DNA from: Flavobacterium sp. CFS9
Lineage (GTDB): Bacteria > Bacteroidota > Bacteroidia > Flavobacteriales > Flavobacteriaceae
DNA: 64,000 nt
Direction: 5' to 3'
Assembly (NCBI RefSeq): GCF_041154745.1
Contig: NZ_AP031573.1
Coordinates: 5,084,001-5,148,000 of the forward strand
Shown: positions 945 to 4,993 of the stretch, piece after piece
Layout: each line of letters opens with the position of its first letter
Position numbering within the stretch: position 1 is the first letter of the stretch
Position numbers and translations under genes: made by a program
The notes under the pieces: generated by a model
What the model saw: the letters and a program-made list of their open reading frames with translations, nothing else
Told to the model about the DNA's origin: nothing
Database searches by the model: none

Positions 945-1661
945 TTAATGTTTTATTACTAAGTCAATTAATGTTCCAACAAGTATAATGGCCAATGAAA
1001 ATGATATCATCCCTAAAAGATAGGCGAAAAAAGCTTTAACATAAGAAGATGCATTTCCTTTATCATAAAACTGTCCAATAGCCCACGTTGAATATATGAG
1101 TCCCACAATACCGGCAAATTGCATTACGTTTAAATGTGTCAGACCGTAAACAACTCCAAAAATGGCATAAATTAACATCCCTATTCCCATTACGAAACAG
1201 AGAAGAATTAATATTTCAAATATGTTATAATCTCGTTTTTTGAAAAATAATTTTGTCCACAATGCAATAAATATCCCCATCATTATATTGGAATAACCTA
1301 AATTCAGCTGAACCCATTTTGAGATAGTACTTGTTGTAGTTTTCTGACTGTCAAGGAAATTCATATAACCATCCTGAAAATGAAAAAGATGATTACTTAT
1401 AGAATAAATTAAGGAAGTAACAATAATAAAAATGATAGGTTTAACCAATCGGCTTCTATTCGCACTAAGGTAATTTCTGATATTTTGTCCCGGGTTTGTT
1501 ACAAGTTCTTTAATAGTATATAATATTCCACGTTCAAAATGCAAAACATGTTCAATTTCGTGAACGATATAATGTCCGTTAATCCTTTTGAGTACTTTTG
1601 GCTGTCCACAGTCGGGACAAAAATTAGAATTTACTTCGGTCTTACAGTTTAGGCAGTTCAT
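945..1661 (-). CDS. DUF3667 membrane protein with N-terminal zinc ribbon
   Basis: This is a 238-residue protein. It opens with a CxxC...CxxC zinc ribbon (CLNCKTEVNSNFCPDCGQP), then the segment HEIEHVLHFERGILYTIKEL that is typical of DUF3667 proteins in Flavobacteriia. About five hydrophobic segments follow between residues 75 and 235, so it should sit in the inner membrane with the ribbon in the cytoplasm. The function of the family is not known. It converges with the histidine kinase and stands alone, with about 200 bp separating it from metQ on the same strand. Confidence 0.8.
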   Translation of the reverse strand: MNCLNCKTEVNSNFCPDCGQPKVLKRINGHYIVHEIEHVLHFERGILYTIKELVTNPGQNIRNYLSANRSRLVKPIIFIIVTSLIYSISNHLFHFQDGYMNFLDSQKTTTSTISKWVQLNLGYSNIMMGIFIALWTKLFFKKRDYNIFEILILLCFVMGIGMLIYAIFGVVYGLTHLNVMQFAGIVGLIYSTWAIGQFYDKGNASSYVKAFFAYLLGMISFSLAIILVGTLIDLVIKH

Positions 1662-1750
1662 TTTTTTGGTTAAATATTTTGGTCAATTTTTTTATTTGCA
1701 GTCAGTTTAATAAACAACTGATGTCAGTCTTTACTTCTTATGCCGAGCTA

Positions 1751-1791
1751 AAATACAAAAAAAGTGCAATGATTTTTAATCATTACACTTT
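1751..1791 (-). terminator. Terminator downstream of metNIQ
   Basis: An imperfect hairpin (AAGTG.AATGATT paired with AATCATT.CACTT, loop TTT) lies at 1761-1791. On the minus strand it is followed by a run of T (A-rich on the plus strand at 1751-1762). It lies 70 bp past the metQ stop codon. Confidence 0.65.
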
Positions 1792-1860
1792 ATATAATTT
1801 AAAGATTTGAACTGATAAAAAAGATTAACGGCTCAACCTTACCATATTTCTAAAAAACGC

Positions 1861-2673
1861 TTACCAGCCCTTTACTGCTCCGCCTTTAAATTCACGAACG
1901 GCAGCTTGTTCTACTTCAGCAGACTGAAACGCCGCTACAAACTGTTTAATTTTTTCTTCTTTTTTGTTGTCATCACGGCTTACAATTAAGTTTACGTAAG
2001 GAGAATCTTTGTCTTCTACAAAAAGAGCATCACGAGCGGGAACCAACCCTGCCTGCGAAGCAAAAGTATTATTGATAATTGCAATTGCAACATTCTGATC
2101 GTCTAAAGCACGTGGCAATTGCGGCGCTTCTAATTCTAATATTTTAAGATTCTTAGGATTTTCCATGATATCCGTCACTTTAGGCAATAAACCTACATTC
2201 GGACGAAGTTTCAGCAACCCGTTTTTCTCTAAAAGTAATAAAGAACGCCCTCCATTTGTAGGATCATTTGGAATAATGATTGTGCTTTCGTTTTTCAATT
2301 CCGAAAGGTTTTTGATCTTTTTAGAATACGCTGCAATTGGATAAATAAAGGTCTTGGCAATAATCGCCAGTTTGTATCCCCGCTGTTTTGATTGCTCGTC
2401 TAAATAAGGTTTGTGCTGAAAAGCATTAACATCAATATCTCCCTGACTCAGCGCTTCGTTTGGAATCACATAATCGTTAAAAGAAACCAATTCTACCTCA
2501 AGACCGTATTTGTCTTTGGCTACTTTTTGGGCAGCCTGAGCTACCACATATTCAGGACCCGCCGCTACTCCCACTTTAATATGGTGTGGGTCGTTATCTT
2601 TACTTTTTCCACAATTTGCCACTACAATGGATAGTGCCGCAATTCCAACTATCTTTAAAAATTTTATTTTCAT
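1861..2673 (-). CDS. metQ: Methionine ABC transporter substrate-binding lipoprotein MetQ
   Basis: This is a 270-residue NlpA/MetQ-family binding protein that captures methionine in the periplasm for the MetNI importer. The N-terminus has a hydrophobic stretch ending in a lipobox (VVANC), so it should be a lipoprotein. Family hallmarks are KVGVAAGPEY near residue 33, NEALSQGDIDVNAFQHKPYL around residue 75, and a late NLIVSRDD segment. It is the last gene of a metN-metI-metQ run on the minus strand, 55 bp behind metI. That spacer contains a tandem heptamer (TTTTACA-type) repeat. Substrate choice rests on family and on the Met-rich leader upstream of metN. Confidence 0.92.
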   Translation of the reverse strand: MKIKFLKIVGIAALSIVVANCGKSKDNDPHHIKVGVAAGPEYVVAQAAQKVAKDKYGLEVELVSFNDYVIPNEALSQGDIDVNAFQHKPYLDEQSKQRGYKLAIIAKTFIYPIAAYSKKIKNLSELKNESTIIIPNDPTNGGRSLLLLEKNGLLKLRPNVGLLPKVTDIMENPKNLKILELEAPQLPRALDDQNVAIAIINNTFASQAGLVPARDALFVEDKDSPYVNLIVSRDDNKKEEKIKQFVAAFQSAEVEQAAVREFKGGAVKGW

Positions 2674-2728: not shown

Positions 2729-3382
2729 TCATCTATGGTCAAATCGTTTAGACAATGCATCACCTGCGAACTGAATCCCGAATACCAGAACAACCAGTAA
2801 AGCCAAAACCGAATTCATCGTTACAGCATCATAGCCAATATAACCGTACTGGTACCCAACCTGTCCTAAACCACCTGCTCCAACTGCTCCACCCATTGCA
2901 GAATACCCCACAAGTGTGATTAAAGTAATCGATGCGGCATTGATTAACGAAGGCAAAGCTTCCGGAAGTAAAACTTTGAATACGATTTGTAAAGGTGTTG
3001 CTCCCAATGCCCTTGCCGCCTCAATTAGTCCAGACGGAAGTCCTAAAAGACTATTTTCTACCAATCTGGCAATAAAAGGAGCTGCTCCAATGCTCAACGG
3101 AACCAGTGCTGCACTTACACCAATGGAAGTACCTACCAGTGCACGTGTAAAAGGAATCATCCATACAATCAGGATAATAAACGGAATCGAACGAAAAACA
3201 TTCACCAAAACCGATAAAAACCGATTCAAAACCGGCTGTTCTAAAATTTGATTTTTTCGGGTCAGAAAAAGCAAAACACCTGTTGGAAGTCCAAGGAGAA
3301 AACCAAAAAAACCGGAGACAAAAGTCATCATTATGGTTTCCCAGGTGCCTTTTAATAATAATTCAATAATGGATTCAGACAT
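2729..3382 (-). CDS. metI: Methionine ABC transporter permease MetI
   Basis: This 217-residue inner-membrane permease has about five transmembrane helices, as expected for MetI. It contains the EAA loop for contact with the ATPase ([22 protein letters not shown], residues about 120-141) and the conserved [13 protein letters not shown] region before it. Its start overlaps the end of metN by 8 bp, which indicates translational coupling. With MetN and MetQ it forms a complete D/L-methionine importer. Confidence 0.93.
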
Positions 3383-4406
3383 AACCTATGATTTCTGTTT
3401 TAATATGTTTTGAAATAAAATAACGGATCGCGGCATCGTAATTTTCACGTTTACCCGACAATTCGATCAGCATAACGCCAAAGTTAACCTCTCCTGCCTG
3501 ATCCATTTGTGCGCTGACAATCTTGAAGTTGGTATCAAACAAACGCGAAACCTCCGAAATAACAGGCTCGTTAACCGATTTACCAGTCATCTCAAGTCGC
3601 AAGAGCGGATTCAGCCCTTCACCATCTTCTTTTTGCAGCCTTTCCTGATACACTTGCGGAACATCAAGATGCAAAGACGAAGCGATAAATTCTTTCGTAA
3701 GTTCATGTTTCGGATCGGCAAAAATTTCTCCGACACTTCCCTGTTCTATTAATTTTCCGTGACTGATTACTGCCACTTCATCACAAATCGATTTTACGAC
3801 TTCCATTTGATGTGTAATCAGTAAAACTGTAATGTTCAGACGACGGTTAATGTCTTTCAATAAATTCAAAATCGATCTGGTCGTTGCGGGATCCAATGCA
3901 CTTGTTGCCTCATCGCATAAAAGTACCTTAGGATTGTTGGCCAATGTTCGTGCAATGGCAACTCTCTGTTTTTGCCCACCGGAAAGACTCGCCGGATAAT
4001 CGCTTGCCTTTTCTTTTAACCCCACCAGTTCCAATAATTCTAAAACACGTGTTTTGATTTCAGCTTTAGAAGCTCCCACAAGTTCCAGCGGAAAAGCTAC
4101 ATTTTCGAAAACTGTACGTGACGAAAGCAGATTAAAGTGCTGAAAAATCATTCCAATTTGTCTTCTCTCTACCGCCAGTTGGGCATTAGACAATTGCATT
4201 AATGCTTTTCCATCAACAATAATTTCGCCCGAAGTGGGTCTTTCCAACAAATTCACACATCGAATTAAGGTACTTTTTCCCGCTCCCGACGTTCCTATTA
4301 CACCAAAAATTTTCCCGGGCGGAACTGTAAGCGAAACATCCGATAAAGCCGAAACTACCCGGTCCTTTTGATGGAAATTCTTAGTGACATTTTTTAATTC
4401 AATCAT
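3375..4406 (-). CDS. metN: Methionine ABC transporter ATP-binding protein MetN
   Basis: This 343-residue ATPase powers the MetNIQ importer. It has Walker A (GTSGAGKST), Q-loop (IFQHFNLL), ABC signature (LSGGQKQR), Walker B ([12 protein letters not shown]) and the H-loop (LLITHQ). A C-terminal NIL/ACT-like domain (residues about 265-343) is, in the family, the methionine-sensing domain that gives trans-inhibition. I chose the ATG at 4406. The longer reading from TTG at 4430 would start inside the U-tract of the leader terminator. It is first in the operon and lies behind an attenuator-like leader. Confidence 0.93.
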
Positions 4407-4421
4407 TCCGTAATTCAGGTT

Positions 4422-4460
4422 TAAAAACAAAAAAGCCTCTCAAAAAATCATGAAAGGCTT
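4422..4460 (-). terminator. Leader terminator of metNIQ, with competing antiterminator
   Basis: On the minus strand a 9-bp stem (AAGCCTTTC with GAGAGGCTT, one G-U pair, 4452-4460 with 4433-4441) is followed by a U-rich tract (TTTTTTGTTTTT). It ends 16 nt before the metN ATG, so it must be read through for expression. Its 5' arm AAGCC (4456-4460) can instead pair with GGCTT at 4489-4493, which lies inside the last codons of the leader peptide ORF. The two pairings exclude each other. Confidence 0.75.
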
Positions 4461-4480
4461 CTTAAATATATACTATTATT

Positions 4481-4576
4481 TTATAGGTAAGCCAGATCAA
4501 TTAACCGCATAACAGGACCGCAGCACATCATCATGTTGCTGTTACGATAGCTTCTATTCTGGTTCTTTTTTCTCAT
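4481..4576 (-). CDS. Met/Cys-rich leader peptide of metNIQ (31 aa)
   Basis: This small ORF begins at the ATG at 4576 and ends in TAA at 4481. Its middle contains NMMMCCGPVM, with three consecutive Met codons, two Cys codons and another Met, in a peptide of 31 residues. It lies between a TAnnTTTG promoter (4585-4592) and the terminator hairpin before metN. The GGCTT antiterminator arm sits in its Ala-Tyr codons next to the stop. A ribosome reaching the stop would cover that arm and favour termination; one stalled on scarce Met or Cys would leave it free. No Shine-Dalgarno sequence is visible, as is usual in this phylum. I infer that it acts by being translated. Confidence 0.72.
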   Translation of the reverse strand: MRKKNQNRSYRNSNMMMCCGPVMRLIDLAYL

Positions 4577-4584
4577 TGATGCGG

Positions 4585-4613
4585 CAAATTTAATGAGTTA
4601 TTTTTAATTTCAA
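4585..4613 (-). promoter_or_regulatory. Promoter of the met leader
   Basis: On the minus strand a TTG (4613-4611) is followed after 18 nt by TAAATTTG (4592-4585), matching the Bacteroidota -33/-7 pattern. The leader ATG starts only 8 nt after the -7 box, so the untranslated part before the leader peptide would be very short. Confidence 0.6.
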
Positions 4614-4620
4614 GCCAAAA

Positions 4621-4993
4621 ACGCATAAAACTTTTATTAACCTATCAAAATAATAGACTAATTATAAGAATCAGGAGCAATTTCCGGCTATCCGCTTATA
4701 TCTTTCCCTGCTTAAAGAAAGCAGGCAAAGGATACCGCTGCTATCCGGGCTAGACTTTAGTTTTCAAAATAACCTCACAAAAACATCATTAAATTAAGAA
4801 AAACTCCCCAAATGATTACTGATTTATGATATGGTAGAAGATAAGTACTGGATCTTGTCAGTTTTTCCAGGTTTTGAAAATCAAAAATCTGCAATCGTCA
4901 ATCTTCAATCTAAAATCCAACAGAAAACTTCAATACCAACAAAAAATGGCGCCTCTCAGCACCATTTCTTACTCTAATTTCAAAACTCAAATT
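4621..4993. other. Non-coding spacer with hairpin and heptamer repeat
   Basis: No gene is visible. At 4700-4732 lies a hairpin (CTTT.CCTGCTT paired with AAGCAGG.AAAG) flanked by two direct copies of GCTATCCG (4687-4694 and 4740-4747), resembling a REP-like unit. At 4892-4919 there is a 7-nt tandem pattern (CAATCGT, CAATCTT, CAATCTA, AAATCCA). Confidence 0.5.

Follow-up and report, generated by a model that had tools for sequence, protein, structure and literature searches.

The metNIQ operon of Flavobacterium sp. CFS9, which encodes a methionine importer, is very likely governed by a ribosome-mediated transcription attenuator that reads Met and Cys codons in a short leader peptide, a conclusion drawn from sequence comparison. 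At the sequence level, the leader, its codons, their spacing, the terminator, the alternative pairings and the conservation of all of these were observed directly.

A leader ORF with a Met/Cys run precedes metNIQ

The window analysed here is the whole stretch of 64,000 nucleotides (contig NZ_AP031573.1, positions 5,084,001 to 5,148,000), and the features under discussion are collected in Table 1. A first-pass annotation of this DNA had described a 31-codon ORF with a Met-Met-Met-Cys-Cys run and a fourth Met codon, followed by a terminator and by metNIQ, and both direct reading and NCBIfam searches place all of these where it had put them. Its promoter held up in part. The -7 box TAAATTTG, of the flavobacterial TAnnTTTG type, is separated from the leader ATG by 8 nt in 23 of 23 aligned metN leaders, as had been proposed, whereas the TTG at N18 that had been read as the upstream element recurs in 3 of the 23 homologues; a TTG at N23 is found in 9, and neither is kept throughout.

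Table 1. Features of the metNIQ leader region (positions in the window)
Feature	Position	Strand	Details and basis
-7 promoter box TAAATTTG	4585..4592	-	invariant in 23/23 metN leaders
Candidate -33 element TTG	4611..4618	-	4613-4611 (N18) or 4618-4616 (N23)
Leader ORF MRKKNQNRSYRNSNMMMCCGPVMRLIDLAYL	4481..4576	-	31 codons, ATG 4576, end 4481; direct reading
Regulatory codons Met-Met-Met-Cys-Cys	4520..4534	-	direct reading; TGC/TGT drift in relatives
Fourth Met codon	4508..4510	-	first base 15 nt before antiterminator arm
Protector segment CCAG	4559..4562	-	partner CTGG 4495-4492; pairing kept in relatives
Antiterminator arm CTGGCTT	4489..4495	-	within last leader codons; GGCTT 4493-4489
Intrinsic terminator hairpin	4430..4463	-	13 pairs, T-rich tail after; folding and consensus scan
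metN, first structural gene	3375..4406	-	TIGR02314, 543.8 bits, cut-off 499.7
metI	2729..3382	-	NF008049, 377.9 bits, cut-off 212
metQ	1861..2673	-	NF008285, 421.7 bits, cut-off 374
Palindrome-like GTCTATTATTTTGATAGG, putative operator on the metN leader promoter	4641..4658	-	fixed spacing

The leader peptide holds four Met and two Cys among its 30 residues (binomial P 6e-5 for six such residues). Five Met/Cys within five residues are unique to it among the 531 ORFs of the window that start with ATG and encode 12-50 amino acids; the next best, a single ORF with CCCC, reaches four. At gathering thresholds Rfam matches Flavo-1 alone in the window, and thus neither a SAM riboswitch nor a T-box across it, in keeping with the earlier inference that metNIQ is switched by something other than a SAM riboswitch. 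The Flavo-1 RNA (RF01705, 65.2 bits) lies at 4677-4755 on the minus strand, just upstream of the leader promoter.

Terminator, antiterminator and putative protector pairings

The stretch that holds the terminator has a folding energy of -16.7 kcal/mol (z -4.93), and the leader of the window as a whole is modestly better folded than its shuffles (z -1.58). The 5′ arm of the terminator, AAGCC (4460-4456), is common to an antiterminator pairing with GGCTT (4493-4489), an alternative that had been proposed in the first-pass annotation and that can be read directly in the letters. A putative protector, CCAG:CTGG, is a third pairing, absent from that annotation.

Conservation of the pairings was evaluated in an alignment (A1) of 23 distinct metN leaders, comprising 21 loci of the genus together with L025 and L026; L023 and L024 were left out as repeats of two included leaders. 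The terminator pairs are present in 89.9% of the cells of A1, the antiterminator pairs GGCTT:AAGCC in 98.3% (60.0-78.3% after a slide by one column) and the protector pairs in 97.8% (44.6 and 50.0% after such a slide), while the inner A/U helix of the antiterminator loop is 92.0% paired. RNAalifold, run on A1, predicted the protector and the terminator unprompted. Double compensatory changes in the three pairings and the inner helix are nearly absent from A1 because the metN family is too conserved, and these percentages therefore show conservation, not covariation. Covariation within the family was dropped as proof for this lack of variation, and a swap test between families, described below, was used instead.

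When the arm is free and the 3′ arm of the terminator is absent, the antiterminator forms with a probability of at least 0.93 in all 23 leaders. Without a ribosome and without the terminator 3′ arm, the mean probability of the protector over the 23 leaders is 0.72; for the window's own RNA, with no ribosome and before the 3′ arm, the antiterminator has 0.97 versus 0.02 for the protector. Taken alone, the antiterminator of the window is not significant against dinucleotide shuffles (p 0.169; median over the 23 leaders 0.066).

Conservation of the leader in Flavobacterium

A search for MetN in 121 Flavobacterium genomes gave 24 matches, counting that of the window itself, with E values of 1e-110 or lower. 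On reading, 21 of the 24 loci proved to have a leader with a Met/Cys run, an intrinsic terminator and, near the leader end, the arm CTGGCTT or a one-base variant of it (a threshold of four Met/Cys within six residues catches 17). The leader is absent at the other three Flavobacterium loci (G252, G256 and G349), where MetN has diverged and is just 65-74% identical; the window MetN is 92-94% identical to that of named Flavobacterium species. The run in the 21 loci reads MMMCC, MMCC, IMCC, MMCR, MMYC, MMCY, NICC or NNCC, and two of the 23 aligned leaders (L130 and L133) have lost the Met run and kept CC and one later Met. The pair of Cys codons is TGC-TGT in 14 leaders, TGT-TGT in five and TGC-TGC in one, with one Cys codon replaced in the remaining three. 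Of what the first-pass annotation had expected from relatives, a kept run with synonymous drift was thus found, whereas compensatory changes in the stems were almost absent. Outside the run the sequence is weakly conserved and carries early stops in some relatives.

The arm reads CTGGCTT in 20 of the 23 leaders; L131 has CTGGCTG, and L134 and L140 both have TTGGCTT. Each of the 23 has a Met or Cys codon 14-20 nt upstream of the arm, if the Met at 16 nt is taken for L131 and the Met at 15 nt for L138. In 18 leaders the last Met/Cys codon begins exactly 15 nt upstream of the arm, and in L026 it begins 14 nt upstream. L131 and L138 have an extra Met or Cys codon closer to the arm or inside it; L134 and L140 have no Met at this distance, and their Cys is at 20 nt. 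The stop codon falls 12 or 6 nt after the arm start in 19 leaders. In the other four (L026, L131, L134 and L140) the frame ends early and the stop codon precedes the arm by 4 or 8 nt, yet the nucleotide arm and the spacing are kept. If a ribosome occupies about 15 nt on each side, one positioned at the stop codon would be expected to cover the arm wholly or mostly in all 23 leaders. The spacing in 23/23 agrees with the earlier suggestion that the arm, lying in the last leader codons, could be covered by a ribosome at the stop and left free by one stalled at Met/Cys.

A strict antiterminator-terminator pattern, which misses the window's own variant, matches 14 of the 121 Flavobacterium genomes, once in each and always beside metN. 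The pattern ATGTGYTGYATGATG has no exact match in the window's own genome.

Proposed mechanism

Transcription would start a few bases before the leader ATG, and ribosomes would trail RNA polymerase through the leader. When Met-tRNA and Cys-tRNA are plentiful, the ribosome would proceed to the stop codon and cover CTGGCTT, the terminator would fold and metN would not be transcribed. When charged Met-tRNA or Cys-tRNA is short, the ribosome would stall on the MMMCC run or on the fourth Met codon, 15 nt before CTGGCTT, and would also block the protector pairing CCAG:CTGG; GGCTT would then take the emerging AAGCC, no terminator would form and the importer would be made. Translation of the leader, stalling, the read-through response and the relative weight of Met and Cys are what we infer from the conserved layout. 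In 21 of the 23 leaders a Met codon is found 14-16 nt upstream of the arm, which points to Met as the dominant signal, and charged Met-tRNA would accordingly be the main input.

Leaders before metY and the swap test

The exact 15-mer ATGATGATGTGYTGY occurs at two places in the 5.37 Mb genome (0 for the reversed control), both of them leaders before methionine genes, metN and metY. The second place lies within the leader MKTIANSMMMCCEMMQMCIPNCYYQK, which stands with a terminator before metY (O-acetylhomoserine sulfhydrylase) and whose last-codon ACCAAAAG pairs with CTTTTGGT of the terminator. A small ORF lies between this terminator and metY (L021, ~2650-2838 on the plus strand). The same gene cluster contains a SAM-I riboswitch before metX (L021:6469-6577, plus strand), so that both systems are found on neighbouring methionine genes of one genome; before metN or metY of this genome, Rfam reports no SAM-I riboswitch.

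MetY was searched for in 61 Flavobacterium genomes, of which 37 matched, and 30 loci were read; L175 was not counted, as its gene could not be located. At least one upstream short ORF with four or more Met/Cys was present in 28 of the 29 metY loci (L180 had none). A tandem pair of leaders, each with its own terminator, was found in 13 of the 29 (L155, L159, L161, L163, L165-L169, L172-L174 and L178). Many upstream metY leaders contain CGCAGAG, complementary to CTCTGC of their terminator; depending on the genome it is translated as SAE, PQR or PQS, so that conservation is at the level of nucleotides, not of residues. With sequences other than those before metN, the metY leaders thus appear to follow the same attenuation logic. 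A SAM-II match in L159 (621-727, minus strand, 47.6 bits, gathering score 44) lies on the strand opposite to metY, and similar matches occur in L237 and L238.

In the swap test, which covered 19 non-redundant leaders, including L218, L221 and L230 with doubtful terminators, leaders paired with their own terminators at -9.94 kcal/mol versus -6.84 kcal/mol (sd 0.53) for permuted combinations, and 0 of 20000 permutations were as low. The swap comparison left out 6 of 107 leaders for which no terminator was found, and the ranks of single leaders in it were modest, with class medians of 0.03 to 0.19.

Met/Cys leaders beyond the genus

We consider it moderately probable that Met/Cys attenuators are a main sulfur amino acid switch across Bacteroidota, acting singly or in tandem on metNIQ, metY and perhaps cysE-cysK, and that in several families a metY leader and a SAM-I riboswitch in series make up a two-input device, sensing charged tRNA and SAM through the same transcript. 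An exact search for ATGATGATGTGYTGY in 249 Flavobacteriaceae genomes gave matches in 26 and 26 new loci (L103-L128). Two of these, L109 and L111, are additional leaders of metY, and in 23 others no succession of leader, terminator and sulfur gene was apparent; the 15-mer was given up as a family tracer, being too strict for the family and too short for specificity over many genomes. The remaining locus (L128), from another Flavobacteriaceae genus, has an MMMCC leader and a terminator of -17.2 kcal/mol upstream of 1638-2480 (plus strand); the tail of the leader is complementary to the terminator arm, with a pairing energy of -17.8 kcal/mol. Its downstream genes match CysE and CysK best in NCBIfam, in both cases below the cut-off, and the CysK-like gene is cut by the locus end. 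L128 is thus a candidate for a Met/Cys leader before cysE-like and cysK-like genes.

MetY is encoded in 93 of 118 Bacteroidota genomes. Seven of the 28 new metY upstream regions in a first batch have a leader, two of them in the window's genus; within about 1 kb of metY, no leader was seen in the ten regions of family f15 or in four genomes of three other Flavobacteriaceae genera. A second batch comprised 40 more metY regions, seven of them from the genus, and with a threshold of four Met/Cys within six residues a Met/Cys-run short ORF was found upstream in 24; the controls gave 0/40 on the opposite strand, 1/40 for reversed letters and a mean of 0.2 for block shuffles. The proportions of the two residues differ among these leaders, that of L241 being almost Met alone (MTLLTNTMMMVMMMSMMMLPPPRCQKSKS) and that of L218 mostly Cys.

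Rfam was run on 37 of the 40 regions (all except L248, L249 and L251). A SAM-I aptamer lies on the metY strand in 27 of them, in 17 together with a leader and in 10 without one at the 4-in-6 threshold. By coordinates, the order leader, leader terminator, S box, metY holds in 11 of the 17 (L226, L232, L234, L236, L244, L246, L250 and L253-L256). At L230 and L231 the leader immediately precedes the S box, and no leader terminator there is convincing. In four loci (L217, L218, L221 and L223) the leader ATG follows the aptamer by 7-9 nt and the leader terminator is missing or doubtful; here SAM perhaps controls translation of the leader. The leader ORFs of these four loci end in Cys/Met codons. 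At L209, too, a metY leader and terminator are followed by a SAM-I riboswitch in series.

Upstream of metN, the 20 Bacteroidota loci of the first MetN search include 15 with a leader and four without, one contig being too short. The four in which no leader was found at metN are from Pedobacter (2), Dyadobacter (1) and Apibacter (1). All 11 metN loci of Chryseobacterium have a different, unrelated-looking leader, MMMYCCMP-like or MMKDxCMP-like, which either immediately precedes metN or lies 0.6-1.2 kb further upstream, in most cases in front of the operon's first gene. Terminators were read in nine of the 11 (L074 and L086 were left out), and in eight of the nine GTGG at the leader end faces CCAC of the terminator arm; L088 differs. 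Among 60 metN regions not titled Bacteroidota, one of which is titled only 'bacterium' and some of which are shorter than 700 nt, two match at the 4-in-6 threshold.

Relation to known systems

Regulation of methionine genes in bacteria is usually described in terms of SAM riboswitches, T-boxes and MetJ. The trp, his, thr, ilv and phe attenuators of Proteobacteria have a leader ORF with codons for the amino acid, an intrinsic terminator ahead of the first gene, and antiterminator and protector pairings that overlap the leader end. The metNIQ leader differs from these in its Met and Cys codons, in the controlled function (an importer here, a sulfhydrylase elsewhere), in an ATG that follows the -7 box by only 8 nt, and in the phylum. 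The SAM-I riboswitch (S box, RF00162), which this genome has before metX, is likewise an RNA control of methionine genes.

Closer parallels have been published. Before metNIQ of Streptomyces lividans, PMC8079986 describes a leader peptide named 'metL', MSTTSDRTPATEATTTPGARCMCRRMCAF, whose codons include Cys and Met; like ours it precedes the importer genes, and it is transcribed leaderless. The authors stress methionine and threonine codons and report no typical Rho-independent terminator, leaving termination unclear, whereas Flavobacterium has a conserved terminator, antiterminator and putative protector. In F. psychrophilum, according to PMC9723704, there are strong clues for leader-peptide attenuation before amino-acid biosynthesis operons, that is, the same proposed mechanism in the same genus; its main text has 0 occurrences of 'methionine', and the elements are listed in the supplements. 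The S. lividans and F. psychrophilum reports make this kind of regulator already known, and the metNIQ leader would be an unusually complete case of it. Cys leaders of mycobacterial cys operons, as presented in PMC1262725, share with ours the runs of Cys codons near the leader stop codon; that paper states that conserved terminator hairpins are absent, proposes Rho, and reports that methionine operons of actinobacteria have no conserved RNA structure upstream. PMC2965389 covers leader systems of Proteobacteria and Actinobacteria, to which it adds Firmicutes; leader-like short ORFs in Bacteroides are mentioned in PMC7366714, and PMC4833913 bears on leader ORFs generally.

The first-pass annotation knew of no described example in the phylum. 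In view of PMC9723704 this was too broad, flavobacterial leader-peptide attenuation having been reported; for a Met/Cys attenuator in Bacteroidota it agrees with our literature search, which found none among the papers listed (the attenuation survey of Lopatovskaya, 2010, may contain one). A complete and conserved Met/Cys attenuator in Bacteroidota would extend the sensing of charged tRNA by leader peptides to sulfur amino acids and would imply that coupling of transcription and translation in this phylum is sufficient for attenuation. Arranged in series with SAM-I aptamers, such leaders would let one gene answer methionine charging and SAM separately.

Alternative explanations and a putative upstream operator

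The leader could act through its peptide. TnaC stalls the ribosome for tryptophan, and a nascent chain in the exit tunnel might similarly sense a ligand such as SAM or free methionine. The RNA logic would be unchanged, and a short peptide whose Met/Cys region is fixed and whose stop codon is close to the pairing arm would be compatible with it. We regard such arrest as highly improbable: arrest peptides typically need fixed residues, whereas the residues around the run vary widely, the run itself changes in length and order (MMMCC, MMCC, MAMCC and NNCC, or MMMVMMMSMMM before metY in L241), and what is kept is Met/Cys content and spacing. The same weak conservation outside the run, and the early stops in some relatives, count against a functional small protein, such as a metal binder, for which the hairpin would simply be the terminator. 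Metal-binding small proteins rich in Met and Cys are known; five leaders searched gave no NCBIfam match, however, and the linkage to methionine genes and the complementarity of the leader end to the terminator arm in the swap test argue in the same direction, so that we give this reading very little weight. That the ORF lies by chance over an ordinary terminator has next to no probability: short ORFs are common, as the 531 in the window illustrate, but such a run occurs in one of them, and conservation of the leader in 21 of 24 metN loci already refutes this explanation.

Regulation of metNIQ could instead reside upstream of the promoter, in a transcription factor that binds the palindrome GTCTATTATTTTGATAGG, with the leader and terminator setting a constant read-through. 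By a strict pattern, the palindrome stands 47-48 nt from TAAATTTG in 20 of the 23 Flavobacterium metN promoters, the other three having near matches, and this fixed distance is in favour of a factor. As the sole regulator, however, it would leave unexplained the Met/Cys codons, the conserved alternative pairings, their spacing and the reappearance of this design upstream of metY, and we judge it highly improbable. Alongside attenuation by the Met/Cys leader, the palindrome (4658-4641) is probably the operator of an additional transcription factor, which would add a second layer of control. A stringent version of the palindrome pattern has one exact place in the window's own genome, the metN promoter, and with this single match no regulon could be drawn. 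By eye, similar repeats are seen before metN of Chryseobacterium and Pedobacter.
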